Assembly (NCBI GenBank): GCA_963682175.1
Contig: OY821781.1
Coordinates: forward strand, 36,407,254 to 36,471,253
Source: Triglochin maritima
Taxonomy: Eukaryota > Streptophyta > Magnoliopsida > Alismatales > Juncaginaceae
Length of the DNA: 64,000 nucleotides
Direction: 5' to 3'
Within the stretch, counting starts at the first letter, position 1. Each line of letters begins with the position of its first letter. The notes under the pieces were generated by a model. That model had not been told where the DNA came from, made no database searches, and saw nothing but the letters and a program-made list of their open reading frames with translations. Shown piece by piece: positions 4,765 through 57,900 of this stretch. The translations under genes and the position numbers were made by a program.

Positions 4765-5095
4765 GGTCAACAAACAGCTCAACCGATCGACCCTTTGGTT
4801 ATCTAAAGATGATTTTGATCAAACATTAAGCCCATACGGTCGACCCTTCCACTACCAAGAAAAGTCCTTGATAATTTCGGTCAGACTGTGTTTCATGTCA
4901 GTCGACCGTACCCTTATCAAGAATGCTCCTGATAAATTCGGTCGAACCATGAACCACACCAGTTGACCGTTCCTGTACCAGGAAAGCTCTTGATAATTTC
5001 GTCGAACCGCATGTCCAGCCGGTCGACCGTTTTCGAACTCAAAAATTACGGTTAAATTTGGTCGACCAGTGCCCAAAAAACGTTCGACCATTTTT
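4765..5095. repeat. TCGGTCGACCGA-like motif cluster in LTR-A
   Basis: Degenerate repeats of a palindromic core (ggtcgaccg, agtcgaccg, ggtcgaacc, gttcgacc) are separated by similar spacers such as accaagaaaagtccttgata, giving a unit of about 70 bp. The cluster lies in U3, upstream of the TATA box. The same arrangement is present at 20645-21020 and 53430-53640. Confidence 0.8.
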
Positions 5096-5722
5096 CACTA
5101 TTTTTGCCCTTTCCAAATTTTAGATCAATATCTAACAAAATTTGAAATTTAGGGTTTTAGCAAGTTTATATGTTATAATGTTGCAGATCATATTATATTA
5201 TCTAATATATTATCATATATAATGTCGAACATCATACTCCATAATATATACATCTCATACAAATTTATTTTTTATTCTAACCATGTCATTTTTACAACAT
5301 ATTAATTTTATCATTTTACCATATGTATTTCATTTCATATCATATGAAATTTAATACACAATATAAAAAACAAAATTATATTTCTTGTTTCCCAATTTTG
5401 TGGTGTGACTTATAGGACTATAGGAGGATCAAAGTTATATTTGTTGGCCTTTTGGTTTCATTACTCCTAATTTTGATGTTTAACAAACTAATATGATGCA
5501 TAACTCCAGTTAACACATCACACATATCATATTGTCAAATTGCACATATATATATTGTATATTCCTAACATTGTAGGTGCTCAAATCAAAGTACTAATCA
5601 ACTTCAAGATCAAGTCTCAAGACTTGTAATCAAAGCTGAAAGACTTTACATGTATTTTTCTATTTATTTCAGTCATAGGATCAAATGTACACTTGATGCC
5701 CAAAAGGATAAACTCGTCTCTG

Positions 5723-6460
5723 TCGGTCAACCGTGTTTTTCTCGGTCTACCGAATGTGTACCAAACATACGACTGAGTTTCTTTCGGTGGTCTGTTTCTA
5801 TCTACTCAGTAGAGTTCGAACCTTCCCTGAAATTACTATTTTGGACTACTGAATGTATGTCGGTCAACCGTGTCCATCTACTCATTGACATTCAAACCTT
5901 CCCTGGAATTCATGATTTGGTCTACCAAATTGGGATCGGTCAACTGAACCGTAACCTTTGTTTTTAATCCAAACGACCAGATCCTATTGGCCTACGTGGC
6001 AATAAATCTGTTGAGAGTTTTTTCAACGGACTTATCTTTTGTCATCTAGCAACACATTTTGAAATGTCCTTAAACGGTCTTCCGAGTCTTCTTCGGTCGA
6101 TCGAATCATTGTTGCTAATCAGAGTGCAATGTCTCTTTTCCACGTGTCATTTGACCGTTACCCATTAACCAACTTTTTAGCCACAATTGTCAACATAAAA
6201 CCCACATGCACGTCGGTCTACCGAATAGCCAGAGGTCGACCAAACATGGCCATCAGAGTCCGACCATTTTCTTACTATCCATCTTAGAATGGTGAACCAA
6301 ATTCTATTCAGTTAACCAAAGTTTAATTAGTTAAAATTAGAAAAAGTTACTGGAAGTTGGTGATCGATTAGTCGAATATTTTTTGGTCTACCGAGGGCTT
6401 CATTCTGACCAATACACCCACAGTGTTCCGGATGACAGTTTGTTTCCCGGTCGACCGAAC
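5723..6460. repeat. TCGGTCGACCGA-like motif cluster in LTR-D
   Basis: Repeated forms include tcggtcaaccgtg, tcggtctaccgaa, tcggtcgatcgaa, aggtcgaccaaa and one exact cggtcgaccgaacc near 6449. All lie upstream of the TATA box at 6554. Copies differ mainly at the central two bases. Confidence 0.8.
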
Positions 6461-6553
6461 CAGTTCTTAATTCTGCCTGAGCTCAAGTCATCACTTGCTT
6501 CTTATTTGCCCAAACTTCACAAACTCACAATAACGACTCTATTTGCTTTGAAG

Positions 6554-6562
6554 GTTATAAAA
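6554..6562 (+). promoter_or_regulatory. LTR-D TATA box
   Basis: The sequence ggttataaaacc forms a TATA box in a small palindrome. It lies about 100 bp downstream of the last copy of the motif cluster. Confidence 0.55.
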
Positions 6563-7514
6563 CCTTCATCTAAGAGACACAATACATACTTTACTTGCCA
6601 AAAATCTTTAATACTCTTGTTCTCTCAAACTCCAAGTCTTCAAAGTTCCACCAACTCTCAAACTTCAATCAATTCACTCCAAGTTCAACTCCAATCCTTT
6701 GAGTGCATTCAAGTTAGAGTTCAACAACTTCAATCAACTTTCATTGTGTTGTAACGCTTCGAGGATGCTCCTTCTCTGGTTGTGAGAGGAGTTTCGAGCA
6801 AGGTGAGAGTGTTCGCAAGACTTCGATAGTAAGAGGGTTTATCTTCGACCTAGAACAAACAGATTAGTGAATTCTCGAGTAGGGATAGAAGACCAATCAA
6901 AATTTGAGGATATGACTAGATTAGGGTGGTGTAGTCGAACCTCTATAAAATCGCCAGAGTCGACTTTTGGTTTGCATTCTTTTCTTCATTGTTTTAATTG
7001 TGCATTATTTAGCTAAATTACCATATAATCTATTCACCGCCCTCTAGATTAGTGATCGATCAAATTAACAATATTGACAATGATATAAAACACTTTATAT
7101 TATAAACTATAAACGGTATCTAACTACATATTATAGTTACCCAAATAACAAAGATGTTTTGTTCAGTAGAACATAGCACAGTCCATTTAGTGATATGTAA
7201 TAATATCACTTGTGTCTATCCTTTGCCTCATGACATTAGGAATATTATACGAAGTAGGAATGTATCATCTTTGTATTACATATTATTTTCTTGATCTCTT
7301 AAGCTAATTATAAATATTTAATTATACATAAGTTACATTGTGCACATTATAATTTTGCTTTATCAAGAGACTCATTAATATCATCACTCAAGTCAAGAGG
7401 GGCAATGATAATCTTTTGACATATGATCTTTTCTGGCACAAGTCATATATAACTAAATAATATCTTTATCACTATACGGAATGATAGCTTTTGATAATGA
7501 TCAAATTATACACT

Positions 7515-7883: not shown

Positions 7884-7886
7884 AAA

Positions 7887-7900
7887 TGGTATCAATGCGG
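7887..7900 (+). promoter_or_regulatory. chromovirus primer binding site
   Basis: tggtatcaatgcgg begins three bases after the LTR end and resembles the initiator-Met PBS in its first eight bases (TGGTATCA). Confidence 0.65.
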
Positions 7901-8849: not shown

Positions 8850-10195
8850 TGTAGGATCGTGTGGGTTATGGGTCCACAATTAAGGCTAATTAACAAATTT
8901 AATCCTAAACAAACTCTACTTGCAAGTCAAAAGATGATGCAGCGGAATTTAAAACAAATACAAGCAAGTAGGGAATAGAAAATGCAAACCACAATCACAC
9001 GGGGGATTTTATAGAGGTTCGGCACCCCACCCGGGTCCTAGTCCTCTCTTGTAAGCTCCGCTCGGATCACCGAGCTCCGCTCACGACTTCACTAACCACT
9101 CCCCGTTCCGGGCCGGGAGAGAACGCCTTTACAAGTCTTCAAGCTCGCGAACAACCCTCGCCGAGCTTGGCTCCTCCTCTCACAATCCGAGAGGATCACT
9201 TCGGGCTCTCACCGAAGTCTATACTCGTGTCTTGGGCTTTCACCAAGACCCTTGCTTCTTTCACAATGGTTGAGTGGAACAACACTCTCTAAACTTGAGC
9301 ACACTTGAGTAGAATATGGAATTGATCACTAAGTGTGGAAGGTTTGAGCTTTTGAGTGTGTTTAGCTTTCTCTCTAATGTTGGGGACAAATAGGTGTTGG
9401 AGAGATGTGTTAAAATGTGTTTTACATCTCTATTTATAAGCTCCAAAAGAGTTATAGCCGTTGGGATTGATTGGGTAAGAGTTGGTGTAGGATACACAAA
9501 ACAGAAACCTACAGAACCCAATTCTGCCTAAAAACGGTCGACCGAATTTGGTATTCCGTTCAACCGTTTGGTCAAAATCCAGCTTTGACTTAAGTTCACT
9601 TAAGTTAACGGTCGAACGGGCTCAGGGGATCGGTCGACCGAATTAGTCCAGGCACTTCTGGGAGACCAAATTGTGTTGGTTCGGTCGACCGTTAGGAAAG
9701 TTTCGGTCGACCGGATGTTTGGTAATTTTGGGGTATTTGGGAATAATACGAATACGACCGTTGGTAATAATATGACAAAACAAATGGCCTGAAAAAATGT
9801 GTAAACGGTCGAACGGAAAGGTTAAAACGGTCGACCGTTTTGGACAGTTTTGTTTAGGTGTTTTCCGGTTCTAGTTTGGATGGTCTATTGAAGTCCAAAT
9901 TACGTGAAATTTTGTGTGTCACTTGTATAGGGAACCTAGTGTGTGGTTGAGTAGTTTTTAGCTCAAGTATGCTCAATTACACAAGGTTCCTAAAGACTCA
10001 AAAGAAATCAAGATTACATGTCTTCGATTTAGCTTTAATTACATGTCTTGACTTCATTTCCTTCTTTCTTGAGTCTTGATCACCTGTAGAGGTTAGCACA
10101 ATACAATATATATGCAATGCATAGTGTGTGCTACTCTAATTAAGATTCGGTTGATTAAATCATCAAAACATAAGATTAAGGCAAAAAAGCCAACA
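8850..10195 (-). mobile_element. solo LTR, family B
   Basis: The sequence starts tgtaggatcg and ends aagccaaca (TG...CA), and is flanked by perfect 5-bp duplications tcagt (8845-8849 and 10196-10200). It is a diverged relative of the LTRs in the array at 10435-19926, sharing blocks such as aagtcttcaagctcgcgaac. There is no internal region. Its minus orientation follows from a TATA box (minus strand CTTATAAATAG, near 9431-9440). Confidence 0.9.
9534..9843. repeat. TCGGTCGACCGA motif cluster in solo LTR-B
   Basis: At least five exact GGTCGACC cores (near 9536, 9631, 9681, 9706 and 9828) and several one-base variants lie about 100-400 bp upstream of the TATA box in element orientation. Confidence 0.85.
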
Positions 10196-10434
10196 TCAGT
10201 ATGTTTTACCCAGGATCGAGGACCTCTTCGACTAGTAGAAGTCAGCGAAGGTCTTCTCGAAGATTGATATGCACTCAGGATATCATTAGCTAAGGATTAA
10301 GGAGTCGGACGTCCAGAAGACAACTTTCTGGACGCGATACGTGCACTATGATTTCTTGGCGAGCTCTTATGAGGGAGAAGAAAGGTTGGATCAGTAGATC
10401 TATAGATCTGTACCATGCCATTTGGACTGACAAA
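10196..10434 (+). pseudogene. chromovirus RT, middle part
   Basis: The fragment continues the RT after the solo LTR: YVLPRIEDLFD, then stops in place of the next residues, KVFSKIDMHSGYH, LRIKESDV, and a degenerate stretch equivalent to TPFGLTN, where the tandem array is inserted. There are several stops. Confidence 0.8.
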
Positions 10435-11171
10435 TGTAGGTAGGATCATGTGGGTCTATGGGTCCACAAACTAATCACGATTAAGCCCTAATTAACTACT
10501 TGGTTGATCGATCAAAGAAATGCAGCGGAAATTAAAAACAAATCAAGCACAAGTAGGAAATCAATGCAAACCACACAAAAAGACACATCAGATTTACAGA
10601 GGTTCGGCCGCGCCTACGTCCTCTCTTGCAAGCCCCTCTCGAATCCCCGTTCGAGCTCCACTTGCGTCTTCACTATGCCTCCCCGTTCCAGGCCGGGAGC
10701 AACGCCTTTTACAAGTCTTCAAGCTCGCGAACAACCCTCGCCGAGCTTGACATCACCTCTCACAACCCGAGAGGATCACTTCGGGCTTTCACCGAAATCT
10801 CTACTTATTTGTCTTGGGCTTTCACCAAGACCCTTGCTCACTTGACAACACAAGTAACCGAGTGAGATTCACTCTCTAATTGAGCACAACAATTGCTAGA
10901 TTGATTGTATGATGAAGGATGTGGAAATTAGGCTTTGGAATCACTAATTGGGAGCTTTGAGGTTGTGGAAAATCTCACTATAAGTTTGACACTTTGGAGT
11001 TGTGAAATCTTGTGGAAAACTAAGTGTGAACCTCTATTTATAAGCTCCTAAAGATTTCTAGCCGTTTGGACAAGATTTGATTGGGTTTTGTGCAAGATAC
11101 ACAAAACAGAAAATCGGGTTCAGAAATCTGTCCAGACACGGTCGACTGAAAGGTGTATCGGTCGACCGAAC
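10435..11171 (-). repeat. array partial LTR, copy 1 (terminal)
   Basis: This is the 737-bp TATA-side part of LTR-B joined to truncated gag at 11171/11172. It differs from the complete LTR at six sites in its left two-thirds (around 10591, 10662, 10685, 10806, 10855 and 10864) and at one site on the right (gtcgactg for gtcgaccg near 11143). Confidence 0.88.
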
Positions 11172-11189
11172 ACGTTTTGGCTCACCCGG

Positions 11190-12365
11190 TCACCACCAAT
11201 CTCCTCCTAAAGCTCCTACAAGTGTAGATTTTGGTACCCATTTTTGCTTGAGTCCATTAAGTTTAGCTTTTGGTACCCAAATCCAAGTTGATTTTGGTAC
11301 CTCTACACTTACTTTCTTTTTCATGGCAAAATTAATTTGAATAGGAAAGTTTTTAACATAAAAATTATTTTTATTGCCATGTGTGAACTTATGCAATTTA
11401 TTTGACAAATTTTCATTTAAGGCATTAAGTTCACTGTTTTTAGTTGCTAGAGATTCATTTAAGCAATTTAGATTTTTAATCATAGAATTATGCTTTTCAT
11501 TCATGTTAAGCATGTGAATCTCTAAATTTGCAACGTTTTCATTCATGCAATTCAAGTCATTTAAAGTTTGCTTGCTTTCAAGATATGATTTATCTAGTTT
11601 CTTTAGCAAGTCAATTTTGTCATTTTCAAGCATATGACTTTCAATTGCATTAGATGAGGTAGATTTATCATTTAAGCACTCATTCTTCAAGCATGCATTT
11701 TCTAAAGTAAGAGCATCAATTTTAGCAAGCAAATCAACTTTATCATCTAACATAGATGCATTTTGACATTTAAGCTCATCTATTTGCTTGTTTGCTAATT
11801 TATTTGATTCATGAAGCTCTTTACATTTTTCTACCATTTTCAGAAATGCATTTTGTAGTTTATGTGAATGTGATGATTTTCCACTTGAACTACAACTTGA
11901 AGAGTGACTAGAAGATACCTCATCTTCACTTTCTCCATCGGATGAGCTTGACGATGATGAAGATGTTGAGTGAATCTCCATTTTCTTTGCTCGAGCTACA
12001 TCCTTTGGAGTGGTTGCTCCTTTCTCCCCGGTTGATGAATCTCCTTCACCAAAGTTCTTTTCTAATGTTTGCCATATAGAGTGAGCACTATCACATGAGC
12101 AAACAACATTAAAAAGTTCATCTCCTAATGCACAAAATATGACATTCATAGCCTTAGCATTTAGGGATGCATTTTTCTCATCTTCTAAACTCCATTTACT
12201 AAAATCATATCTAGGTGATTCATATGGAGTTTGAATCATAAACCACATGTTAATGTTCATGGATTTAATAAATGATATCATTTTACTTTTCCATGAAACA
12301 AAATTATTTCCATCAAAGTGTGGTGGTTTATAAGATTCTAAAGGTGTGGATGCATTAAGAGCCAT
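11190..12365 (-). CDS. truncated copia gag, array unit 1
   Basis: This is an open frame of 391 codons beginning MALNASTPLESYKPP. Residues 1-110 resemble the copia gag N-terminus (HFDGNNFVSWKSKM, then SIWQTLEKNFGEG). The rest of the UBN2-like gag domain is missing, and the frame continues directly into GEKGATTPKDVARAKK. A Ser-rich stretch (about 133-168) and a long Asn/Leu/Lys-rich coiled-coil segment (about 170-340) follow, then two WVPK motifs. No zinc knuckle, protease or pol remains. The frame ends about 20 bp before the join to the partial LTR. Carries His in the marker EIHMLN. Confidence 0.75.
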   Translation of the reverse strand: MALNASTPLESYKPPHFDGNNFVSWKSKMISFIKSMNINMWFMIQTPYESPRYDFSKWSLEDEKNASLNAKAMNVIFCALGDELFNVVCSCDSAHSIWQTLEKNFGEGDSSTGEKGATTPKDVARAKKMEIHSTSSSSSSSSDGESEDEVSSSHSSSCSSSGKSSHSHKLQNAFLKMVEKCKELHESNKLANKQIDELKCQNASMLDDKVDLLAKIDALTLENACLKNECLNDKSTSSNAIESHMLENDKIDLLKKLDKSYLESKQTLNDLNCMNENVANLEIHMLNMNEKHNSMIKNLNCLNESLATKNSELNALNENLSNKLHKFTHGNKNNFYVKNFPIQINFAMKKKVSVEVPKSTWIWVPKAKLNGLKQKWVPKSTLVGALGGDWW

Positions 12366-12402
12366 GTTAATTTATCGATTAAGAACAAAATTAACGAACA
12401 AG

Positions 12403-12414
12403 GCTCTGATACCA
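12403..12414 (-). promoter_or_regulatory. primer binding site, array unit 1
   Basis: The minus strand reads TGGTATCAGAGC, a perfect initiator-Met PBS, two bases from the LTR end. Identical copies are at 14385-14396, 16367-16378 and 18349-18360, one per unit. Confidence 0.9.
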
Positions 12415-12416
12415 AA

Positions 12417-13153
12417 TGTAGGTAGGATCATGTGGGTCTATGGGTCCACAAACTAATCACGATTAAGCCCTAATTAACTACTTGGTTGATCGATCAAAGA
12501 AATGCAGCGGAAATTAAAAACAAATCAAGCACAAGTAGGAAATCAATGCAAACCACACAAAAAGACACATCGGATTTACAGAGGTTCGGCCGCGCCTACG
12601 TCCTCTCTTGCAAGCCCCTCTCGAATCCCCGTTCGAGCTCCTCTTGCGTCTTCACTATGCCTCCCCGTTCCGGGCCGGGAGCAACGCCTTTTACAAGTCT
12701 TCAAGCTCGCGAACAACCCTCGCCGAGCTTGACATCACCTCTCACAACCCGAGAGGATCACTTCGGGCTTTCACCGAAATCTCTACTTCTTTGTCTTGGG
12801 CTTTCACCAAGACCCTTGCTCACTTGACAACACAGGTAACCGAGTGGGATTCACTCTCTAATTGAGCACAACAATTGCTAGATTGATTGTATGATGAAGG
12901 ATGTGGAAATTAGGCTTTGGAATCACTAATTGGGAGCTTTGAGGTTGTGGAAAATCTCACTATAAGTTTGACACTTTGGAGTTGTGAAATCTTGTGGAAA
13001 ACTAAGTGTGAACCTCTATTTATAAGCTCCTAAAGATTTCTAGCCGTTTGGACAAGATTTGATTGGGTTTTGTGCAAGATACACAAAACAGAAAATCGGG
13101 TTCAGAAATCTGTCCAGACACGGTCGACTGAAAGGTGTATCGGTCGACCGAAC
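12417..13153 (-). repeat. array partial LTR, copy 2 (chimeric)
   Basis: At the six left-hand diagnostic sites it has the states of the complete LTR (18363-19926). At the right-hand site it has the gtcgactg state of copy 1. The same holds for copies 3 and 4. This is the product expected from crossing-over between the two outer LTRs. Confidence 0.88.
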
Positions 13154-13171
13154 ACGTTTTGGCTCACCCGG

Positions 13172-14347
13172 TCACCACCAATCTCCTCCTAAAGCTCCTA
13201 CAAGTGTAGATTTTGGTACCCATTTTTGCTTGAGTCCATTAAGTTTAGCTTTTGGTACCCAAATCCAAGTTGATTTTGGTACCTCTACACTTACTTTCTT
13301 TTTCATGGCAAAATTAATTTGAATAGGAAAGTTTTTAACATAAAAATTATTTTTATTGCCATGTGTGAACTTATGCAATTTATTTGACAAATTTTCATTT
13401 AAGGCATTAAGTTCACTGTTTTTAGTTGCTAGAGATTCATTTAAGCAATTTAGATTTTTAATCATAGAATTATGCTTTTCATTCATGTTAAGCATGCGAA
13501 TCTCTAAATTTGCAACGTTTTCATTCATGCAATTCAAGTCATTTAAAGTTTGCTTGCTTTCAAGATATGATTTATCTAGTTTCTTTAGCAAGTCAATTTT
13601 GTCATTTTCAAGCATATGACTTTCAATTGCATTAGATGAGGTAGATTTATCATTTAAGCACTCATTCTTCAAGCATGCATTTTCTAAAGTAAGAGCATCA
13701 ATTTTAGCAAGCAAATCAACTTTATCATCTAACATAGATGCATTTTGACATTTAAGCTCATCTATTTGCTTGTTTGCTAATTTATTTGATTCATGAAGCT
13801 CTTTACATTTTTCTACCATTTTCAGAAATGCATTTTGTAGTTTATGTGAATGTGATGATTTTCCACTTGAACTACAACTTGAAGAGTGACTAGAAGATAC
13901 CTCATCTTCACTTTCTCCATCGGATGAGCTTGACGATGATGAAGATGTTGAGTGAATCTCCATTTTCTTTGCTCGAGCTACATCCTTTGGAGTGGTTGCT
14001 CCTTTCTCCCCGGTTGATGAATCTCCTTCACCAAAGTTCTTTTCTAATGTTTGCCATATAGAGTGAGCACTATCACATGAGCAAACAACATTAAAAAGTT
14101 CATCTCCTAATGCACAAAATATGACATTCATAGCCTTAGCATTTAGGGATGCATTTTTCTCATCTTCTAAACTCCATTTACTAAAATCATATCTAGGTGA
14201 TTCATATGGAGTTTGAATCATAAACCACATGTTAATGTTCATGGATTTAATAAATGATATCATTTTACTTTTCCATGAAACAAAATTATTTCCATCAAAG
14301 TGTGGTGGTTTATAAGATTCTAAAGGTGTGGATGCATTAAGAGCCAT
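13172..14347 (-). CDS. truncated copia gag, array unit 2
   Basis: It is the same 391-codon frame as unit 1, without internal stops. The only amino-acid difference I find is Arg for His in EIRMLN (gcatgcgaatc on the plus strand near 13495). Same deletion end and same join to the LTR. Confidence 0.75.
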   Translation of the reverse strand: MALNASTPLESYKPPHFDGNNFVSWKSKMISFIKSMNINMWFMIQTPYESPRYDFSKWSLEDEKNASLNAKAMNVIFCALGDELFNVVCSCDSAHSIWQTLEKNFGEGDSSTGEKGATTPKDVARAKKMEIHSTSSSSSSSSDGESEDEVSSSHSSSCSSSGKSSHSHKLQNAFLKMVEKCKELHESNKLANKQIDELKCQNASMLDDKVDLLAKIDALTLENACLKNECLNDKSTSSNAIESHMLENDKIDLLKKLDKSYLESKQTLNDLNCMNENVANLEIRMLNMNEKHNSMIKNLNCLNESLATKNSELNALNENLSNKLHKFTHGNKNNFYVKNFPIQINFAMKKKVSVEVPKSTWIWVPKAKLNGLKQKWVPKSTLVGALGGDWW

Positions 14348-14398
14348 GTTAATTTATCGATTAAGAACAAAATTAACGAACAAGGCTCTGATACCAAA

Positions 14399-15135
14399 TG
14401 TAGGTAGGATCATGTGGGTCTATGGGTCCACAAACTAATCACGATTAAGCCCTAATTAACTACTTGGTTGATCGATCAAAGAAATGCAGCGGAAATTAAA
14501 AACAAATCAAGCACAAGTAGGAAATCAATGCAAACCACACAAAAAGACACATCGGATTTACAGAGGTTCGGCCGCGCCTACGTCCTCTCTTGCAAGCCCC
14601 TCTCGAATCCCCGTTCGAGCTCCTCTTGCGTCTTCACTATGCCTCCCCGTTCCGGGCCGGGAGCAACGCCTTTTACAAGTCTTCAAGCTCGCGAACAACC
14701 CTCGCCGAGCTTGACATCACCTCTCACAACCCGAGAGGATCACTTCGGGCTTTCACCGAAATCTCTACTTCTTTGTCTTGGGCTTTCACCAAGACCCTTG
14801 CTCACTTGACAACACAGGTAACCGAGTGGGATTCACTCTCTAATTGAGCACAACAATTGCTAGATTGATTGTATGATGAAGGATGTGGAAATTAGGCTTT
14901 GGAATCACTAATTGGGAGCTTTGAGGTTGTGGAAAATCTCACTATAAGTTTGACACTTTGGAGTTGTGAAATCTTGTGGAAAACTAAGTGTGAACCTCTA
15001 TTTATAAGCTCCTAAAGATTTCTAGCCGTTTGGACAAGATTTGATTGGGTTTTGTGCAAGATACACAAAACAGAAAATCGGGTTCAGAAATCTGTCCAGA
15101 CACGGTCGACTGAAAGGTGTATCGGTCGACCGAAC
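14399..15135 (-). repeat. array partial LTR, copy 3 (chimeric)
   Basis: Same diagnostic states as copy 2. I found no difference between copies 2, 3 and 4 at the sites compared. Confidence 0.88.
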
Positions 15136-15153
15136 ACGTTTTGGCTCACCCGG

Positions 15154-16329
15154 TCACCACCAATCTCCTCCTAAAGCTCCTACAAGTGTAGATTTTGGTA
15201 CCCATTTTTGCTTGAGTCCATTAAGTTTAGCTTTTGGTACCCAAATCCAAGTTGATTTTGGTACCTCTACACTTACTTTCTTTTTCATGGCAAAATTAAT
15301 TTGAATAGGAAAGTTTTTAACATAAAAATTATTTTTATTGCCATGTGTGAACTTATGCAATTTATTTGACAAATTTTCATTTAAGGCATTAAGTTCACTG
15401 TTTTTAGTTGCTAGAGATTCATTTAAGCAATTTAGATTTTTAATCATAGAATTATGCTTTTCATTCATGTTAAGCATGTGAATCTCTAAATTTGCAACGT
15501 TTTCATTCATGCAATTCAAGTCATTTAAAGTTTGCTTGCTTTCAAGATATGATTTATCTAGTTTCTTTAGCAAGTCAATTTTGTCATTTTCAAGCATATG
15601 ACTTTCAATTGCATTAGATGAGGTAGATTTATCATTTAAGCACTCATTCTTCAAGCATGCATTTTCTAAAGTAAGAGCATCAATTTTAGCAAGCAAATCA
15701 ACTTTATCATCTAACATAGATGCATTTTGACATTTAAGCTCATCTATTTGCTTGTTTGCTAATTTATTTGATTCATGAAGCTCTTTACATTTTTCTACCA
15801 TTTTCAGAAATGCATTTTGTAGTTTATGTGAATGTGATGATTTTCCACTTGAACTACAACTTGAAGAGTGACTAGAAGATACCTCATCTTCACTTTCTCC
15901 ATCGGATGAGCTTGACGATGATGAAGATGTTGAGTGAATCTCCATTTTCTTTGCTCGAGCTACATCCTTTGGAGTGGTTGCTCCTTTCTCCCCGGTTGAT
16001 GAATCTCCTTCACCAAAGTTCTTTTCTAATGTTTGCCATATAGAGTGAGCACTATCACATGAGCAAACAACATTAAAAAGTTCATCTCCTAATGCACAAA
16101 ATATGACATTCATAGCCTTAGCATTTAGGGATGCATTTTTCTCATCTTCTAAACTCCATTTACTAAAATCATATCTAGGTGATTCATATGGAGTTTGAAT
16201 CATAAACCACATGTTAATGTTCATGGATTTAATAAATGATATCATTTTACTTTTCCATGAAACAAAATTATTTCCATCAAAGTGTGGTGGTTTATAAGAT
16301 TCTAAAGGTGTGGATGCATTAAGAGCCAT
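15154..16329 (-). CDS. truncated copia gag, array unit 3
   Basis: The 391-codon frame is open throughout. It has His in EIHMLN like unit 1, not like its neighbours units 2 and 4. Confidence 0.75.
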   Translation of the reverse strand: MALNASTPLESYKPPHFDGNNFVSWKSKMISFIKSMNINMWFMIQTPYESPRYDFSKWSLEDEKNASLNAKAMNVIFCALGDELFNVVCSCDSAHSIWQTLEKNFGEGDSSTGEKGATTPKDVARAKKMEIHSTSSSSSSSSDGESEDEVSSSHSSSCSSSGKSSHSHKLQNAFLKMVEKCKELHESNKLANKQIDELKCQNASMLDDKVDLLAKIDALTLENACLKNECLNDKSTSSNAIESHMLENDKIDLLKKLDKSYLESKQTLNDLNCMNENVANLEIHMLNMNEKHNSMIKNLNCLNESLATKNSELNALNENLSNKLHKFTHGNKNNFYVKNFPIQINFAMKKKVSVEVPKSTWIWVPKAKLNGLKQKWVPKSTLVGALGGDWW

Positions 16330-16380
16330 GTTAATTTATCGATTAAGAACAAAATTAACGAACAAGGCTCTGATACCAAA

Positions 16381-17117
16381 TGTAGGTAGGATCATGTGGG
16401 TCTATGGGTCCACAAACTAATCACGATTAAGCCCTAATTAACTACTTGGTTGATCGATCAAAGAAATGCAGCGGAAATTAAAAACAAATCAAGCACAAGT
16501 AGGAAATCAATGCAAACCACACAAAAAGACACATCGGATTTACAGAGGTTCGGCCGCGCCTACGTCCTCTCTTGCAAGCCCCTCTCGAATCCCCGTTCGA
16601 GCTCCTCTTGCGTCTTCACTATGCCTCCCCGTTCCGGGCCGGGAGCAACGCCTTTTACAAGTCTTCAAGCTCGCGAACAACCCTCGCCGAGCTTGACATC
16701 ACCTCTCACAACCCGAGAGGATCACTTCGGGCTTTCACCGAAATCTCTACTTCTTTGTCTTGGGCTTTCACCAAGACCCTTGCTCACTTGACAACACAGG
16801 TAACCGAGTGGGATTCACTCTCTAATTGAGCACAACAATTGCTAGATTGATTGTATGATGAAGGATGTGGAAATTAGGCTTTGGAATCACTAATTGGGAG
16901 CTTTGAGGTTGTGGAAAATCTCACTATAAGTTTGACACTTTGGAGTTGTGAAATCTTGTGGAAAACTAAGTGTGAACCTCTATTTATAAGCTCCTAAAGA
17001 TTTCTAGCCGTTTGGACAAGATTTGATTGGGTTTTGTGCAAGATACACAAAACAGAAAATCGGGTTCAGAAATCTGTCCAGACACGGTCGACTGAAAGGT
17101 GTATCGGTCGACCGAAC
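16381..17117 (-). repeat. array partial LTR, copy 4 (chimeric)
   Basis: Same diagnostic states as copies 2 and 3. It joins truncated gag at the same base. Confidence 0.88.
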
Positions 17118-17135
17118 ACGTTTTGGCTCACCCGG

Positions 17136-18311
17136 TCACCACCAATCTCCTCCTAAAGCTCCTACAAGTGTAGATTTTGGTACCCATTTTTGCTTGAGTC
17201 CATTAAGTTTAGCTTTTGGTACCCAAATCCAAGTTGATTTTGGTACCTCTACACTTACTTTCTTTTTCATGGCAAAATTAATTTGAATAGGAAAGTTTTT
17301 AACATAAAAATTATTTTTATTGCCATGTGTGAACTTATGCAATTTATTTGACAAATTTTCATTTAAGGCATTAAGTTCACTGTTTTTAGTTGCTAGAGAT
17401 TCATTTAAGCAATTTAGATTTTTAATCATAGAATTATGCTTTTCATTCATGTTAAGCATGCGAATCTCTAAATTTGCAACGTTTTCATTCATGCAATTCA
17501 AGTCATTTAAAGTTTGCTTGCTTTCAAGATATGATTTATCTAGTTTCTTTAGCAAGTCAATTTTGTCATTTTCAAGCATATGACTTTCAATTGCATTAGA
17601 TGAGGTAGATTTATCATTTAAGCACTCATTCTTCAAGCATGCATTTTCTAAAGTAAGAGCATCAATTTTAGCAAGCAAATCAACTTTATCATCTAACATA
17701 GATGCATTTTGACATTTAAGCTCATCTATTTGCTTGTTTGCTAATTTATTTGATTCATGAAGCTCTTTACATTTTTCTACCATTTTCAGAAATGCATTTT
17801 GTAGTTTATGTGAATGTGATGATTTTCCACTTGAACTACAACTTGAAGAGTGACTAGAAGATACCTCATCTTCACTTTCTCCATCGGATGAGCTTGACGA
17901 TGATGAAGATGTTGAGTGAATCTCCATTTTCTTTGCTCGAGCTACATCCTTTGGAGTGGTTGCTCCTTTCTCCCCGGTTGATGAATCTCCTTCACCAAAG
18001 TTCTTTTCTAATGTTTGCCATATAGAGTGAGCACTATCACATGAGCAAACAACATTAAAAAGTTCATCTCCTAATGCACAAAATATGACATTCATAGCCT
18101 TAGCATTTAGGGATGCATTTTTCTCATCTTCTAAACTCCATTTACTAAAATCATATCTAGGTGATTCATATGGAGTTTGAATCATAAACCACATGTTAAT
18201 GTTCATGGATTTAATAAATGATATCATTTTACTTTTCCATGAAACAAAATTATTTCCATCAAAGTGTGGTGGTTTATAAGATTCTAAAGGTGTGGATGCA
18301 TTAAGAGCCAT
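17136..18311 (-). CDS. truncated copia gag, array unit 4
   Basis: The 391-codon frame is open throughout, with Arg in EIRMLN like unit 2. It is the unit next to the complete LTR, so it alone has an intact upstream U3 promoter with the full motif cluster. Units 1-3 have only the 737-bp partial LTR upstream, which keeps the TATA box but loses most of the cluster. Confidence 0.75.
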   Translation of the reverse strand: MALNASTPLESYKPPHFDGNNFVSWKSKMISFIKSMNINMWFMIQTPYESPRYDFSKWSLEDEKNASLNAKAMNVIFCALGDELFNVVCSCDSAHSIWQTLEKNFGEGDSSTGEKGATTPKDVARAKKMEIHSTSSSSSSSSDGESEDEVSSSHSSSCSSSGKSSHSHKLQNAFLKMVEKCKELHESNKLANKQIDELKCQNASMLDDKVDLLAKIDALTLENACLKNECLNDKSTSSNAIESHMLENDKIDLLKKLDKSYLESKQTLNDLNCMNENVANLEIRMLNMNEKHNSMIKNLNCLNESLATKNSELNALNENLSNKLHKFTHGNKNNFYVKNFPIQINFAMKKKVSVEVPKSTWIWVPKAKLNGLKQKWVPKSTLVGALGGDWW

Positions 18312-18961
18312 GTTAATTTATCGATTAAGAACAAAATTAACGAACAAGGCTCTGATACCAAATGTAGGTAGGATCATGTGGGTCTATGGGTCCACAAACT
18401 AATCACGATTAAGCCCTAATTAACTACTTGGTTGATCGATCAAAGAAATGCAGCGGAAATTAAAAACAAATCAAGCACAAGTAGGAAATCAATGCAAACC
18501 ACACAAAAAGACACATCGGATTTACAGAGGTTCGGCCGCGCCTACGTCCTCTCTTGCAAGCCCCTCTCGAATCCCCGTTCGAGCTCCTCTTGCGTCTTCA
18601 CTATGCCTCCCCGTTCCGGGCCGGGAGCAACGCCTTTTACAAGTCTTCAAGCTCGCGAACAACCCTCGCCGAGCTTGACATCACCTCTCACAACCCGAGA
18701 GGATCACTTCGGGCTTTCACCGAAATCTCTACTTCTTTGTCTTGGGCTTTCACCAAGACCCTTGCTCACTTGACAACACAGGTAACCGAGTGGGATTCAC
18801 TCTCTAATTGAGCACAACAATTGCTAGATTGATTGTATGATGAAGGATGTGGAAATTAGGCTTTGGAATCACTAATTGGGAGCTTTGAGGTTGTGGAAAA
18901 TCTCACTATAAGTTTGACACTTTGGAGTTGTGAAATCTTGTGGAAAACTAAGTGTGAACCT

Positions 18962-18972
18962 CTATTTATAAG
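18962..18972 (-). promoter_or_regulatory. LTR-B TATA box
   Basis: The minus strand reads CTTATAAATAGAGG. Equivalent boxes occur in every partial LTR of the array (for example 11034-11044). Confidence 0.65.
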
Positions 18973-19064
18973 CTCCTAAAGATTTCTAGCCGTTTGGACA
19001 AGATTTGATTGGGTTTTGTGCAAGATACACAAAACAGAAAATCGGGTTCAGAAATCTGTCCAGA

Positions 19065-19562
19065 CACGGTCGACCGAAAGGTGTATCGGTCGACCGAACC
19101 CTTGAGTCTGTTGAAGGATCGGTTGACCGAACATAGGTACTGGTCGACCGAAACACTTAAGTTCTATAGGTCAACGGTCGACCGAACAGGTACCGGTCGA
19201 CCGAACTACTGGGTTCGGTAGAGAGAAATCTTGATCGGTTGGACAAACTTGTGTCGACCGATAGCATGGGGTTTTTCACGAATTAAACGGTCGACCGAAT
19301 AAGGTAGTTTGTTCGACCGGTTCTAATGTATATGGGGGTGTATATTGAGAAAAATGTGTATACGACCGTTGTATAATACGACAAATAAAACGGTCGTATT
19401 TTTACCAGAAATAGCAAACGAAACGGTCGACCGAAGGTCTACCGGTCGACCGAACAGGTCTGGGTAATCGGTTAAATAGATGTGTGATCGGTTGAACGGA
19501 TTGGTCTGGTATAACAAAAATTGTGTATAACCGGTCGACCGAAAGGTGAACGGTCGACCGAA
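19065..19562. repeat. TCGGTCGACCGA motif cluster, densest copy
   Basis: I count ten exact GGTCGACC cores in about 500 bp, most inside cggtcgaccgaac, plus near matches (ggttgaccg, tgtcgaccg, gttcgaccg). The spacing is irregular, with frequent pairs 15-25 bp apart. The cluster begins about 95 bp upstream of the TATA box in element orientation. Confidence 0.9.
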
Positions 19563-19926
19563 CTCAGGCAGACTGGCGACCAACGTTTTAGGTGTTTAGG
19601 TGATCTAATGGAGTCCAAATTATATGATATTTTGTGTGTGACTCCTAAAAGGAACCTAGTGTGTGAATGCATGCATATTAGCTTAAGTTATGCTCAATTT
19701 ACATAAGTTCCTAATTCTCAAAGAAAGGTAAAATTACATGTCTTCAATCCTAGCTTGATTACATGTCTTGACTTGATTTTTCTTCTTTCTTGAGTCTTGA
19801 TCACCTGTAGATGTTAGCACAATACAACATGTATACTATTATACTACATGTGCTAATCTACATGTCCTTATTAAGATTAGGTTTAATTACATCATCAAAA
19901 TACGGATTAAGGCCAAAAAGCCAACA

Positions 19927-46778: not shown

Positions 46779-47040
46779 GCGTCACGGACGCGCCTTACGT
46801 GGATCTGTACAGCTCAGATATTTTCTTTGAGTCAGCGTCCAGTCAGCGAAATTTCTCTTCGCGCGTTTTGGTCTTTTTAAAAAACGCCGGTTCTTTAAGT
46901 TGAACGATTCATTTCCCAATACACAGATAAGACAGTGTGCAGACCCTAGAACATCGTGCAGTCTCATTATTCGTGCAGAGCCCACACTTATCATAATAAA
47001 ATATTTGTTTTTAAGTTTTACGTTGGATCAACTTAATTTG

Positions 47041-47866
47041 TCTAGCTTACTTTATGTGTGTGTGCAGTTTACGTTATGTGTTTGTCCTGTTTACGTTATG
47101 TGTCTGTCCGGAATAAGTGTATTTGCAGTCCGGAATAAGTGTATTTGTTGTCCGGTTTAAGAATAAAGTGTGTCCAGAAACGAAACATAAAGTTTGTCCG
47201 GAATAAGTGTATTTGCTGTCCGGAATAAGTGTATTTGCAGTCCGGAATAAGTGTATTTGTTGTCCGGTTTAAGAATAAAGTGTGTCCAGAAACGGAACAT
47301 AAAGTTTGTCCGGAATAAGTGTATTTGCTGTCCGGAATCGCAATAAGTGTATTTGTTGTCCGGAATAAGTGTATTTGCAGTTTGGAATAAGTGTAGTTGT
47401 CTAGAATAAGAAGAAAGTGTGTTTAGAAACGGAACAGAAAGTTTGTCCGGAATAAGTGTATTTGCTGTCCGGAATAAGTGTAGTTCATGTCCTGTTTATG
47501 TAGAAAGTTTGTCCTGTTTATGTATAAAGTTTGTCCTGTTTTGTCCTGTTTATGTAGAAAGCTTGTCCTGTTTTGTCCAGTTTATGTAGAAAGTTTGTCC
47601 TGTTTATGTAGAAAATTTGTCCTGTTTTGTCCTGTTTATGTAGAAAGTTTGTCCTGTTTTGTCCTGTTTATATAGAAAGCTTGTCCTGTTTTGTCATGTT
47701 TATGTAGAAAGTTTGTCCTGTTTATGTAGAATGTTTGTCCAGTTTATGTAGAAAGTTTGTACTGTTTATGTACAAAGTTTGTCCTGTTTATGTAGAAAGT
47801 TTGTCTTGTTTATGTAGAATGTTTGTCCAGTTTATGTAGAAAGTTTGTCCTGTTTATGTATATATA
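47041..47866 (+). repeat. minisatellite, about 22-bp units
   Basis: The left half is built from tgtccggaataagtgtattt units with a higher-order block repeated (47170-47280 and 47290-47400). The right half is built from tttgtcctgtttatgtagaa units, more than ten copies. The units share the tgtcc start, so one probably arose from the other. The ORF across it is only repeat translation. Confidence 0.9.
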
Positions 47867-48117
47867 ATGAGAGCACAATGAGATATTGATGGTACATAAT
47901 ATTGATGATAACTATTACACAATAAGATACAATGAGAGCACAAAGACAAACAAACAATACAAGCACAAACACAAACACACAAAAATTACAAAAATAATAT
48001 ATCATCTCCCGGTAAATCACACACAAACAAACAATACAAACACACACAAATTACAAAGATAATATATATTTTCCCAGTAAATCGGAAAGAAGATGTAAGA
48101 CTTAAACATGATCGTCT

Positions 48118-51900: not shown

Positions 51901-54900
51901 ATTCATAGTTCAGATGTGTAACGATCCAACAAGCTTGAACACTTGTTTTGACCTTTACGAGTACGAAAAAGGCGGTAAATGATGTCTACGAAGCTTGGCT
52001 GGCATGTGCTCGCTCATGGCTGTGGTTCGTTCATCTACCGGAGTTGAGAAAAAAGTTCCCTGGTTAAGTAGGAATCCAACTGAGTGGTGGAAAACTCATC
52101 ATTCTTCCTTCACCCTATCTATTGTCAATGCAGTCGACGATCTTTTGATAAGGTTTTGGGTCACTCCTAAAGTTTTGGATGATGATTTCCTTGGCCTTTT
52201 TCATTGCATCATAAAGATAATCCATTGTTGGTTTCTTATCGCCGTCCACCAACCTAAAAACATTGACTATTGGTTGTGAAACTTTGAGTGCTTCCACAAC
52301 GTTGGCCTAGAAGCGTTGCTGAAGAATGACTTCGACCACTTGGGTGGAGGTTTCCTTCAACCTCTTGTTCTTCATCCAGGTAGCATTCGGGTAGTTGTAA
52401 TCGACGGAGACAAAAAAGATATGAGTTGTTCCTTCTTGAAATATAGCATCTGCAATGTCAAGAAAGTTGTAGCAAATCGGGTGACCATCTGCCCTAACAA
52501 GTTGCCCTCGATGACTTTTCGCATCCACGGGAGTAATAAGGTATGGTCGTTAAAATGCCTTACGATCCGTCGGCTTAAGGCGATGGTATTCAAAAATAAC
52601 TTGCCGATATCTTCGGATGAGGTTGATGCAGTGTGTGGCGCAAGGAGTCCAGAAAAGATGCTCCATCTTTTGCATCAACATCTTCCTAGCGGCTACGTAC
52701 GCAGTGGCGTTGTCGGTGACAACTTGAACCACGTACTCCTCCCCTACTTCTTCAACAACATTGTCAATTAACTTGAACAAGTTGTTAGCTGTGTGTAACT
52801 TGTTGGATTTCGTCCCTATGCTTGGGTATATATATATTATTTATACACAAGCAAGATCAATTTTCATATTTATTCAATAATTTTGTGTATAGGATTACCT
52901 AAAGCATTTCCATAAAATGTATTCTACATAATAATGAAATGCATAAATTAAATCATACCTAAAAGAATTGTAAAACCCTTTTGGATTGTCGGAAATCGAG
53001 TTGCAGTCGATTTTCCTTTGAAAACTTTCTGTAACTGTTCACCAAATTCTAAACAAGATTAGAATGATTGAAGTTAGCCAATCAAATATAATGCAAAGCT
53101 AGAATCTAGCTAATCACTCATTCTACACCACCAAACATTAGATCTTTCAATGACTAGCACTCAATTAATTAAGAGAGTTTAATGGAGGGATGAAGAAAAA
53201 TATGGAAGAGAAAATCTGTATTATTTTCAAAAGAATAAAGGAGAATTATATTTATAGTCTATTCTCCAAACTACCTTATGTGTAAAACTACCCACATATG
53301 TTCTATGGTAGTTTCTCCTATCCACCAATCATATTTTTACACATCCTCCTATAAATTCCATTGACCAACATGAATCAAAATCCCTCTATTAATCAGCAAC
53401 AATCTCTTATTAATGTGGACAAAACGTGGGTAAACGGTCGACTGAAATACCTAACCGGTCGACCGTTCCGTTATCTTGAAAAGTTTCTGATAATTTCAGT
53501 CGAATCTAATCATGTTGGTCGACCGTTCCCTTACCAAGAAAGTTCCTAATAATTTCGGTCGACCGTGACACAACGGTCGACCGTTCTGAACTTAAAACGT
53601 TACTTAAAAATTCGGTCGATTGGTTCACGGGACGATCAACCTTTTTCTCCTGTTTTTGCCTTCACAAATTTGGATCAATTTCCCATATTATTTTAGCTTT
53701 GGGGTTTTAGCAAATTCATATGTTATAATGTTGCGGATCACATTATATCATGTAATATATTATCATATATAATGTCAACATTATATTCCATAATATATAT
53801 ATACATCTTATATAAATTTATTTCTTATTCTAACCATATCGTTATTACGATATATTAATTTTATCATTTTACCCTATGTATATTATTTCATATCACATGA
53901 AATTTAATACATCTCTATAAAATATAAAATCATATTTTTTATTTTCCAATTTTATGGTGTGACGTATAGCAAGATGTAAGTTATGTTGGCAATGATATAA
54001 AACATTTTATATCACAAACTATAAACAATATCTGACTACACATTATAGTTACCCAAATAACAAAAAAGTTTTGTTCACTAGCACATAACACAATCTACTT
54101 AATAATATGAAATAATATCACTTATGTCTATTCATTGCCTTATGATATTAGGAATATTATACAAAATAGGATGTGTCATTTTTATATTATATTTATTTTT
54201 TCTTGATTTCTTAAACAAATTATAAATATGTAACTATACATAAGTTATATTGTGTACATTATAATTTTTTTATATCAATTGACCCAATAATATCTTCACT
54301 TAAGTTAAGTGTGACAATGACAATTTTTTGACATATAATCTTTTTCCCGCACAATCCATATACAACTAACTAATATCTTTATCATTATGCGTAACGACAG
54401 TTTTTGATAATAATTAAATTATACACTTCTCATGTGAAAAACATATAAGTCTTATATCTTAGGATTCAAATATACAATGAAAACATTAATGATACAATCA
54501 CAATTCCATAATTTTTCATTTATTAGGATTATTAAATATATAAATGAAAATATATTCTCTTTTATATACTCATGTTAAATACTTGTAGAGCAATAATAAC
54601 TTTTAACCAACATGACAATCTTATATTGGTAATAAATGTTCCATGTTAATTACCTCGATTGTGAATTACTTTTGATTTATGTAACATTATCTTTTAGAGT
54701 TGTATGATAAAAGACCAAGAACTTATTCAAGAACTCTTCTAAAAGACGAACACATTAATCAAAGAACAAAATGATCAGACATTCAATTCATAAAAAAACA
54801 TAAAAATAAACTTTTAAAACACATATTCGTTTCACCCGCATCAACTGAACATAAAAGCATTTTTCCTATCGGACAATTCATTAAAAAGTTTGTTAAACTT

Positions 54901-57900
54901 CTACCAGATCTATCGGTCCATGCATCCGTCATTATTGTAAATCCATATAATTTTTCAATCTTGCCTATATGAACTTCGAAAACCCATAGTGACTTTTTTT
55001 AAGGCATGTATCGCTGACTTCGTGATAAGTGATGTGTTTTAAGCCAGGAATGTATGTGTAAGTAGCCTCAATGACTTCCTTAGACTCAGTTGTATTAACA
55101 ACATTAAAAGAAAGAAATTTCACATCTATAAAAAAATTAGCTCATTTTTTATTAATTGTTGTACGATCATCATTCTTAAAATGTCGTTCAATTCTGGTTT
55201 GTTGGGTCCAGTCAACATCTTGAGATTGACTACAAAATCGATCTATTGGTCCTCAAGTACCCTTCTCTTTTGAGGAGCCAAGTAGGGGTGAGCAAATTTT
55301 GGTTCGGTTCGGTCCGCACACAAATGTGTACACATGGTCGCCTAGGTGTGCATTGTGCGGGTGGTCGCATATGACTGCCTAGGCGACTGCCCGCCTGAAC
55401 CTTGCTTACTGGTATCCATTTGATTATCTGATTATAACCCATACTGAATATTGAAGAAGAAAATAGACCTATAAACTGAATACACTGTCTCTACTACACC
55501 ACTTACCGATCCTAGTCTTCGCTCTCCTTCGAAAGAATGTTGGTGCTCTCTTGAGTCTTCATACCACATCTTCTTGCTGCTCATCACCACCGTTGTTGCT
55601 TAATTAGCAGTTTCAAATTTGAACTTTAAATTCTTCATAATATCTGACTCTCCACGTTCGATGCTCTTACTCAGTTTTGTAGCTTTGGATTCAAAGTTTG
55701 TTATAGGAAATGAAGTCCTTCAGCATGTGATCAATCATAATATGTGTTGTTTTAAAGAAGACTACCATGGTTAGTTGATTAAGTAATTTATTTATATTAT
55801 TTTCAAGTTGTGACATAATTGTTTTCTGATTTTTTTTCCCTTGGTAAAGTTTGTTCGAGTTGAAGATCCAATTAGGGGTGCACATGGGTTGGGTTCAACC
55901 CGAAACCCAACCCGAACCCGACTGGTCGGGTCGGGTTGGGTCGGGTTGGGGAGGGGTTCGGGTCGGGTCGGGTTGGGAAAATCAAAAACCCGAATTTTCG
56001 GGTCGGGTTCGGGTTGAGGGGGTCGGGTTGACCCAACCCAACCCGAACCCGATTTTTATTTTTTTTATTTTTTCCCAAATAAACCGGTCGACCGAACATC
56101 ACTCGGTCGACCGTTTCCAACCCGAAAATTTCGGGTGTTCAAGCCACCGGTCGACCGTTTAAGCACCGGTCGACCGTTTCAACCCGAATCCGACCAAGTT
56201 TGGGAGAAAATTCCCGAATTCGGGTTCAACCCGATCCAACCCGACCCAACCCGAAAATTTCGGGTCGGGTTGGGTTGAACCTAAACCGGTTCGGGTTCGG
56301 GTTGGGTTTTTTTCCAACCCGAAAATTTCGGGTTGGGTCGGGTTGAGGCCCAAACCCGACCCAACCCGACCCATGTGCACCCCTAGATCCAATGCTTCAT
56401 CCTTGAAATGAGTAACCTCATTTTGTCACGTGCCCCTGTTTTAACATAGTTTCTGAGCTCCCATATCTCTCATAGGATATAACAGAATATTTGTCTTTGT
56501 CGTCCTAGCAAGAAATTTCAAGAATGTTCTTAATGACTGTTACATATGTTATTGTTCTGTTGGAAAATTAATTGAATAACCAATTCCATCAGACATGAGT
56601 CCATGAGCTATAAAAATAAAGGTTCTCTAAAGAGAGAAGAGTGGCTATAAGACTATTAGTTGTGCAAGTACTTGTCATTTCCTTGACTTTGCATGAATTT
56701 TTTATTGTATATGCCTATATTTAACGATGAGTACCTTAAACCTTTTCTTCGACGAATCAGTGGAAGGAGAAGCTTATGGCTGGCTATGTTGGTAGTTTTT
56801 GTTTCCTTGATTATGTATGAATGTACTGCAGTTCATTGTGTTGGTTGTCACGTTCTTGTTAATTTTCACATGCTTATATTACTGTACATCACATTTCGTC
56901 TCTTGCATGCAATATTTGATCAACCCACCTCACATCACGACATCATGGGTATGTATAATATAATGCACGGTTTTGGTTATCATTAATGAAAACTCTTGTC
57001 ATACTTGCATCAACATTTAATCTTCTGGTTGTTACATTGTATTCCTCAAACATATATAGAGCTTAATGTACAGTATTTAATCTAATAATTCATTCTTCAA
57101 TAATAATCTATCCATTGGGGTGATTGTATCCTGGCCAGTACGGTATCACGTGAATGATGATGGTTCTACTTAAGTTTGTTTAGTTAGTACTTACTTCATC
57201 CCCACTGTTTTCTCTGTGTTGATTGAGCTAACTACATGAGCATGACCACTCTCGTTGGGCATTCCATGTATTTTCCTGTAACTTAGCAATACCGGTTCAT
57301 GCAGAATCTAGGATGGATATCCTATTTGGCCTTTTCATTATTGACATTGGTATTGGTGATATTAACATAATTATCCCCTCAACTTTTCTTGGCAATCCAA
57401 CACCCTCTACCTCATTATGATTATGCTTAAATTTACAGTTCACAAAGAGTCCAGTGTAATAAATTTATACAAATAGCATGGTGTGAGAAGTTTCAAGCGC
57501 AATTAATTTTTCAATTTTTTCACGCTGTCAGATCAATTACCACCTTTTTTGCCTGCTGGCTTATAATCTTTTTCTGTATGACTTCAGGAACCTCAGCTTG
57601 TCCAGAAAGTAAGTTCTACTGCAAGAACTTAGGAGACAGAACACGAATCCTATTTTCATCCCGTGTGAATGACCAAATCTGTGGTACACTTGACAGATTA
57701 CTTCTTCACATTCATGTTATGAAGAATGTCCACTAATTCTGTTTCATTTGTTTATAGATTGCTGCGACGGAAGTGATGAGTATGATGGAAGAATCATCTG
57801 TGCAGATACATGTAGTAAGAAAGACATCATTGCCGCTGTCATGAAGGCCAAGAACGCTCATGATATGGAGACAGAGAATAGTGGTCAACTGAGTGTATTT

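Follow-up and report, generated by a model that had tools for sequence, protein, structure and literature searches.

Why would unrelated transposable elements carry clusters of one and the same short palindrome? The question is raised by a 64-kb stretch of the Triglochin maritima genome (C13:36407254-36471253, from 1.063 Gb in 167 contigs; hereafter the window), for which an earlier note, made by reading the letters, had described the palindromic 8-mer GGTCGACC as clustered in the long terminal repeats (LTRs) of several retrotransposon families. Here we report that arrays of this motif, with the 12-mer TCGGTCGACCGA as the full site, occur in copia, Ty3 and hAT-type elements, a distribution that suggests that unrelated transposons answer to the same control protein. 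Judged from the DNA itself, it is moderately probable that the arrays are binding sites for one dimeric host transcription factor, used by elements that are otherwise unrelated.

Results

The motif is not equally frequent in random DNA, a point on which the earlier note had let its own proposal depend: exact 12-mer counting returned 79,427 genomic copies of TCGGTCGACCGA against 15 for the reversed control. The window holds 39 exact GGTCGACC cores where dinucleotide shuffling of 64 kb predicts 0.28, and 57 matches to TCGGTCGACCGA at up to two mismatches where 0.70 are expected. Both counts include the units of a 1982-bp tandem array, which carry four of the 39 cores (11160, 13142, 15124 and 17106), so that these four are not independent. 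In a random sample of 17 loci of 10 kb each (170 kb in total) we found 57 cores, or 335 per Mb, and 14 clusters of two or more sites matching at least 10 of 12 positions, distributed over 8 of the 17 loci. Ranking of palindromic 8-mers with at least four occurrences in these 170 kb placed GGTCGACC first (57 vs 0.91 expected), with the runner-up seen 4 times against 0.41 expected. Window, genome-wide and random-locus counts rule out chance as the origin of the clusters, and extrapolation from the random sample would put the genome-wide number of sites in the hundreds of thousands.

To place these sites in their elements, the following features were delineated in the window. Where several AT-rich matches competed, position decided which was taken as the TATA word, and the bounds of some LTRs are approximate; the listing of sites and TATA words includes the tandem units.

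About 4133-7514, minus strand: LTR-A copy 1, split by the solo LTR-D, with a site cluster at 4836-5069 upstream of the TATA word at 4582.
5442-7070, plus strand: solo LTR-D (TGTTGG...TTAACA, ends set by eye), inserted in the LTR-A copy with a 5-bp target-site duplication (TSD) ATATT; of its eleven sites matching at least 9 of 12 positions at 5723-6458, eight form pairs spaced by 19 bp; TATA word at 6556.
8851-10195, minus strand: LTR-B copy, sites at 9534-9838, TATA word at 9432.
10431-19099, minus strand: tandem array of about 4.4 copies of the 1982-bp unit, 99.1-99.9% alike.
18364-19926, minus strand: LTR-B, of a family assigned to the Sireviruses; 12 sites of at least 10/12, including 10 exact cores, at 19066-19561; TATA word at 18964; junction CA-TTTGG-TATCAGAGC.
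20009-22172 (bounds approximate), minus strand: LTR-A copy 2, nine sites at 20649-21000, TATA word at 20463.
22214-24405, plus strand: degraded Ty3 pol remnant (identified by eye).
24439-26674, plus strand: chromovirus LTR with a degraded site cluster at 25008-25534, downstream of a weak TATA-like TTTAAAA at 24604.
52803-54830 (bounds approximate), minus strand: LTR-A copy 3, five sites of at least 10/12 at 53434-53584, TATA word at 53250.
55873-56385: hAT-type miniature inverted-repeat transposable element (MITE) of 513 bp, with terminal inverted repeat (TIR) TAGGGGTGCAC and an 8-bp TSD GATCCAAT at 55865-55872 and 56386-56393; its sites form two 19-bp pairs, 56084/56103 and 56147/56166 (cluster 56084-56177).

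All clusters that the earlier note had named in LTR-A, LTR-D, LTR-B and the chromovirus LTR are thus present, and the ten exact cores it counted at 19065-19562 number exactly ten. Its restriction of the motif to LTRs did not stand, since the cluster at 56084-56177, which lies within the region it spanned and went unlisted, sits in the MITE. The description of the LTR families as unrelated was borne out: LTR-A, B, D and the chromovirus LTR have no mutual blastn similarity outside the arrays (E 1e-5, nested or adjacent elements aside), and no common LTR ancestry was detected. On this ground we rejected descent of the arrays from a single LTR. Links between LTRs that appear at low thresholds are artefacts caused by neighbouring elements, such as the MITE beside the E LTR in locus L035.

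The elements were sorted by hand from blast components into 15 groups (the number of components ranges from 13 to 18 depending on the threshold), using the window, the random loci and a set named C1 (L001-L003, L006, L007 and L026-L045); the C1 loci were selected for exact 12-mers within a single contig (its first 0.52 Mb) and hence do not amount to random sampling. Three loci that overlap others (L004, L005 and L008) were left out of the grouping as well as of the spacing, pair-change, companion and dyad counts; these analyses, together with the gapped-palindrome search and the second 8-mer set, also disregarded the window's tandem units by skipping, masking or cutting them. The three loci are absent from the junction list too. 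Ten of the 14 clusters of the random sample fall in groups A, B or H, and the other four in no group at that threshold. Arrays are found in the Sirevirus copia family B, in the classic copia families E and F, in the Ty3 families G and H, in the window chromovirus and in the MITE, upholding the proposal that copia and Ty3 families share a cis-element. Grouped members of E, F, G, H and I carry 8-18 sites, and lower numbers (3-5) are found in LTR-A copies 1 and 3, the LTR-B at 8851 and the window chromovirus.

The class assignments rest on coding and junction features. On such sequence criteria LTR-B is a Sirevirus family: its junction differs by one base from the Sirevirus CA/ATTGG/TATCAGAGC, and in one copy three AGGGGGAG tracts lie within 200 bp before the LTR (L015:7803, 7887 and 7999), the nearest beginning 10 bp from the LTR start. 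The full tandem unit comprises a part of LTR-B with two sites, a primer-binding site (PBS) and a 393-aa frame, which in the one unit tested is copia gag by Pfam; the stretch 10431-19099 is a recent tandem amplification of a retrotransposon piece. LTR-A is probably copia, given that a PBS-like site at 4120 and a Pol_BBD/gag-pre-integrase frame at 1055-1987 share its orientation. Families E and F, from contig C1, are assigned to classic copia by the order of an RVT_2 reverse transcriptase (RT), one AAGGTGGAG(A) tract and then directly the LTR, in L048 (E) and L027 (F), and by a copia gag 3' of the F LTR in L026; AGGGGGAG was not found in the E/F loci L026, L027, L030, L035, L036, L039, L043, L044 and L048. 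The F LTR of L043 has a copia RT frame directly next to it on what should be the gag side; because of this arrangement, F is classified from L026, in which gag follows the LTR, and L027, in which RT precedes it. Families G and H are assigned to Ty3 by Retrotrans_gag, RVP_2 and RVT_1 next to the motif-bearing LTR in L047 (G) and L046 (H). Ahead of the chromovirus LTR, the frame 23827-24402 gives a strong match to the Tf2-1-like SH3 domain (SH3_Tf2-1) and a chromodomain match below the Pfam cut-off. The MITE, which we take to be hAT-type from its TIR and TSD, has a second copy at L035:890-1360 (88% over 519 aligned positions) that keeps all four sites (1078, 1097, 1141 and 1160) at the same spacings.

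Two further observations concern the E family. The K and E LTRs are about 80% alike in their 3' part (L006 862-1243 vs L044 1933-2281 and L035), and their arrays differ, with 19-bp pairs and variable centres in K vs 22-bp pairs in E, as if the array region had been replaced. In L036, a DUF538 frame (2152-2640) begins at the end of a motif-bearing E LTR, which possibly adjoins or drives a host gene.

The site itself is a dyad of fixed geometry. CGGT-N2-ACCG gives 329 matches, against 0-13 for each other spacer length (0, 1 and 3-8), and this fixed 2-bp spacer fits a dimeric protein, much as the earlier note had imagined when it spoke of a dimeric factor. The centre is CG in 267 of the 329, TG or CA in 27 and something else in 35. 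While the half-sites CGGT and ACCG are mostly kept, both the centre and the outer bases vary.

Sites are moreover arranged in pairs. Measured start to start between neighbours (sites of at least 10/12, no more than 100 bp from one another), spacings of 18-23 bp make up 12 of 33 in the window, 25 of 62 in the random loci and 112 of 248 in the C1 set, with none at 5-11 bp in any set and 0, 2 and 1, respectively, at 12-17 bp. Spacing of 18-23 bp was seen in 14 of the 15 groups. The main classes are 19 bp (D, K, the MITE and others) and 22 bp (E, F, G, H and I), and the gap from one pair to the next is often about 42-52 bp. Inner half-sites of the 22-bp pairs vary more than the outer ones (89 vs 49 changes, of 904 each; p 5e-4, with copies that are not independent), which might reflect tolerance by a putative protein assembly.

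A second palindrome, ACTTAAGT, accompanies the sites. Within 100 bp of a site 25 copies occur in 28,423 bp, compared with 11 in 281,213 bp elsewhere (88 vs 3.9 per 100 kb), and the near-to-far ratio across the three sets is 10, 24 and 92. For sixteen of the 25 near copies, in copia E/F, Sirevirus B and Ty3 H, the centre is 11-13 bp from that of a site. In E and F, ACTTAAGT is found between two sites 23-24 bp apart in seven cases (L026, L027, L035, L039 and L043), and outside E/F the sites that flank it on both sides are 33-63 bp apart.

Within families, the sites are better kept than their surroundings. In alignments of six families, site bases agree in 4750 of 5225 comparisons vs 8197 of 10,930 for the linkers, sites being higher in each family, and CpGs are kept in 1094 of 1210 comparisons inside sites vs 1432 of 2023 elsewhere in the LTR; these are ordered pairs, so that each pair is counted twice, and B is represented by two copies only. 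Array length does change: a tandem block, 93% alike over 245 bp, is present in the E 5' LTR in L044 (18 sites) and missing from the 3' LTR in L048 (12 sites). From their places the two LTRs, 97% identical over 780 aligned bases, appear to belong to one element, and the difference is either a gain in one or a loss in the other.

The position relative to the promoter follows the superfamily. Between the end of the array and the TATA word downstream of it, copia-type LTRs have about 50-250 bp (about 95 bp in B, 98 in D, 53 in E, 76 in F (L027), 74 in K and about 180 in A, with about 250 bp for LTR-A copy 1 when measured from its first weak site); no TATA word was found in the F LTR of L026. Five of the seven Ty3-type LTRs (two of G, two of H and the window chromovirus) have a TATA-like word at 160-174, counted from the LTR start, with the array starting 280-430 bp beyond it, at 458-502 in G and H and at 593 in the chromovirus; in the H LTR of L029 and in I no TATA-like word precedes the array. 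Placement upstream of TATA, which the earlier note had called usual, applies to LTR-A, B and D (about 95-250 bp) but is not supported as a general rule: in the chromovirus LTR the weak TATA-like word comes before the array. Of the six G, H and chromovirus LTRs, four have at 352-365 a word, AGGTATG(C/T)C, that resembles a 5' splice site; I has it at 610. Arrays are also rich in CpG, with an observed/expected ratio of 0.98-1.99 vs 0.51-1.19 in the rest of the LTR, the array being higher in 17 of 17 LTRs.

Discussion

The fixed dyad, the pair spacing, the looser inner half-sites of the 22-bp pairs, the conservation and the placement are what would be expected of an enhancer array for a dimeric protein. 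One dimeric, sequence-specific host DNA-binding protein, most likely a transcription factor, would bind CGGT-N2-ACCG; two palindromes about 19 or 22 bp apart would form a dimer-of-dimers unit, and ACTTAAGT may be the site of a second factor, beside or between some of the sites. The arrays would then act as enhancers upstream of TATA in copia, downstream of the TATA-like word in Ty3 and inside the MITE, and both positions relative to the promoter fit an enhancer. Their length would change through gain or loss of tandem blocks holding pairs. As copia, Ty3 and hAT-type elements all carry the motif, a host protein is the simplest common factor. We infer the binding of a protein, its host origin and the activating direction from these sequence patterns.

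Several observations weigh against this. One group (N, locus L013) lacks the pair spacing, and inner and outer half-sites do not differ in the 19-bp pairs (16 vs 18 of 352) or significantly at 20-21 bp (86 vs 68 of 664, p 0.14). The helical repeat was not singled out by periodicity tests, where periods of 15 and 20 outscore 10.75. The 19-bp pairs have 13 double changes (six complementary) vs 4.5 expected, an excess compatible with a structural role in those pairs. The conservation figures draw on within-family copies that lack independence, and they may be raised by an aligner preference for matching one site with another. The motif is missing from several LTR-type repeat families, as in the direct-repeat pairs 27611-29178/43881-45448 and 31787-32986/37032-38231 of the window, and L017 1-2461/6221-8674 and L025 1085-2560/5260-6760 of the sampled loci. 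Finally, we know of no plant factor with this site.

Among the other explanations, it is rather unlikely that the arrays serve anti-silencing, where a transposon-encoded protein similar to VANC of the Arabidopsis VANDAL elements would bind them and remove silencing, other transposons having taken up the site. VANC targets are short motifs in non-coding regions or introns, spread by tandem repeats (PMC5735166, as far as the sections drawn upon describe), which resembles the tandem block of E and the Ty3 arrays behind the putative 5' splice site; one protein encoded by a transposable element would however need to serve copia, Ty3 and hAT-type elements alike.

Exchange in place of convergence, with array units moved by template switching, recombination or nested insertion, is likewise rather unlikely, and the site may still bind a factor under it. 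This was approached through exact words of at least 16 bp common to 22 copia-side and 14 Ty3-side pieces, hand-chosen and including groups of inferred class (A, D, K, I and the L010 and L024:9740 pieces). We found 103 such words, compared with 40-57 in 20 shuffled-linker controls, and 17 with at least six non-motif bases, compared with a mean of 3.8 (range 1-9) in the same controls; the 22-mer TTCGGTCGACCGGAACTTAAGT, common to copia F and Ty3 H, is of the kind that exchange would leave. Among the 25 of 103 words that were listed, on the other hand, none is longer than 22 bp, and all those with at least nine non-motif bases consist of a site plus ACTTAAGT, which a second binding site would explain too. 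The pattern indicates that copia and Ty3 have a short composite unit in common rather than long LTR segments.

A role at the level of nucleic-acid structure is quite unlikely. Under it, neighbouring palindromes would pair as RNA or cruciform and supply small RNAs or a structure to be recognised, an idea put forward for Sirevirus palindromes of maize (PMC10760457, in the portions used here). Identical palindromes 19-22 bp apart could make a 12-bp stem, the maize case is a precedent, and the double changes of the 19-bp pairs speak for it. Against it, the 22-bp pairs have 145 one-sided changes and eight doubles (four complementary) where 5.7 doubles are expected, and the pooled pairs of 20-23 bp have 17 doubles (12 complementary) where 18.9 are expected; the centre is free to vary while the half-sites are kept, and no common RNA is evident, since copia arrays precede the TATA word and Ty3 arrays follow a TATA-like one. 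As double changes are not clearly in excess, we rejected an RNA stem within pairs as the general cause, the 19-bp pairs excepted. Neutral expansion of functionless short repeats by slippage inside LTRs is very improbable: tandem blocks do alter array length, but linkers diverge while sites and their CpGs stay, and the same word and spacing in unrelated elements would be hard to reach by independent slippage.

Returning to the binding of one dimeric host factor, a wider proposition can be put forward tentatively, and we regard it as less likely than not: that a single trans-acting factor controls a transposon regulon extending over the whole genome and taking in several retrotransposon superfamilies as well as DNA transposons, read by a pair grammar (19 or 22 bp, plus ACTTAAGT) and acquired independently or exchanged as units of about 35 bp.

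The motif itself is already published. Sirevirus LTRs carry palindromic CGG-CCG repeated motifs (RM) just upstream of TATA, CpG-rich, present in many copies in the upper half of the LTR and in at least eight per element, and the RM of the Vitis Sirevirus is CGGTCGACCG (Bousios et al. 2010, PMC2829016, in the parts consulted). This is the very motif described here, where family B is itself assigned to the Sireviruses and the LTR-B at 18364-19926 has 12 sites with the CGG-CCG signature. The RM was reported there as Sirevirus-specific and absent from classic copia, whereas here the motif is also found in classic copia E/F, Ty3 G/H, the chromovirus and the hAT-type MITE. The arrays here stand upstream of a TATA word in copia A, B, E and F (L027), as well as in D and K, and downstream of a TATA-like word in five of seven Ty3-type LTRs. 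The pair spacing and ACTTAAGT set the present description apart from the RM account, as far as the parts of it used here extend, and no report of the motif in Ty3 or hAT elements was found in the limited literature surveyed. The present data add the much wider setting, the pair spacing, the companion and the Ty3 position. The earlier note had neither the pair spacing nor the companion, and it did not mention the Vitis motif.

Two other systems offer parallels. In maize, the palindrome CACCGGAC is common to copia and Helitrons and was discussed through RNA structure and small RNAs (PMC10760457, again from the portions used). Both cases have a palindrome common to copia and another transposon class; they differ in sequence, in the involvement of Ty3 and hAT-type elements here and in the 22-bp pairs without clear excess of double changes. 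The VANC21 target of VANDAL21 is a short motif built up by tandem repeats in non-coding transposon parts, as here, and is bound by a protein that the same DNA transposons encode; sharing with retrotransposons, as seen here, is not mentioned in the sections of that paper drawn upon (PMC5735166). By analogy, VANC targets would be the closest functional counterpart. With the Vitis RM recurring outside Sireviruses, these parallels indicate a known kind of element in a wider setting.

If unrelated transposons do depend on one host factor, that factor would set the timing of expression for much of the genome's transposon load, and host genes could be rewired by its very numerous dispersed binding sites. 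Were the regulon factor an anti-silencing protein, it would be a cross-class counterpart of VANC. In the literature surveyed we found no identified binder of this motif family, published in 2010, for which the pair spacing offers a concrete probe.

Other repeats

A gapped palindrome, CGGCG-N4-CGCCG, recurs with 11 occurrences in 4 of the 18 sequences searched; the places recorded are 32313, 33180 and 37558 of the window and the loci L001, L010, L017 and L020, and at 32313 and 37558 it falls in an LTR-type repeat pair without GGTCGACC. At 27000-27600 of the window many degenerate words such as TTCAGACGACTGAA and TTTGGACGACTGAA were seen by eye; they may represent an old array built on a related, distinct palindrome. 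The words TCCGGAC/GTCCGGA, frequently spaced by 22 bp, are densely packed in L020 2752-5391 and at about 47.1-47.5 kb of the window (recorded as 39180-39541 in coordinates with the tandem part cut out, a shift of about 7.9 kb) and probably represent a minisatellite or another array. The window has a minisatellite of about 22-bp units (TTTGTCCTGTTTATGTAGAAAG and variants) at 47037-47882. Contig C2, of 152,656 bases, is probably the plastid genome.

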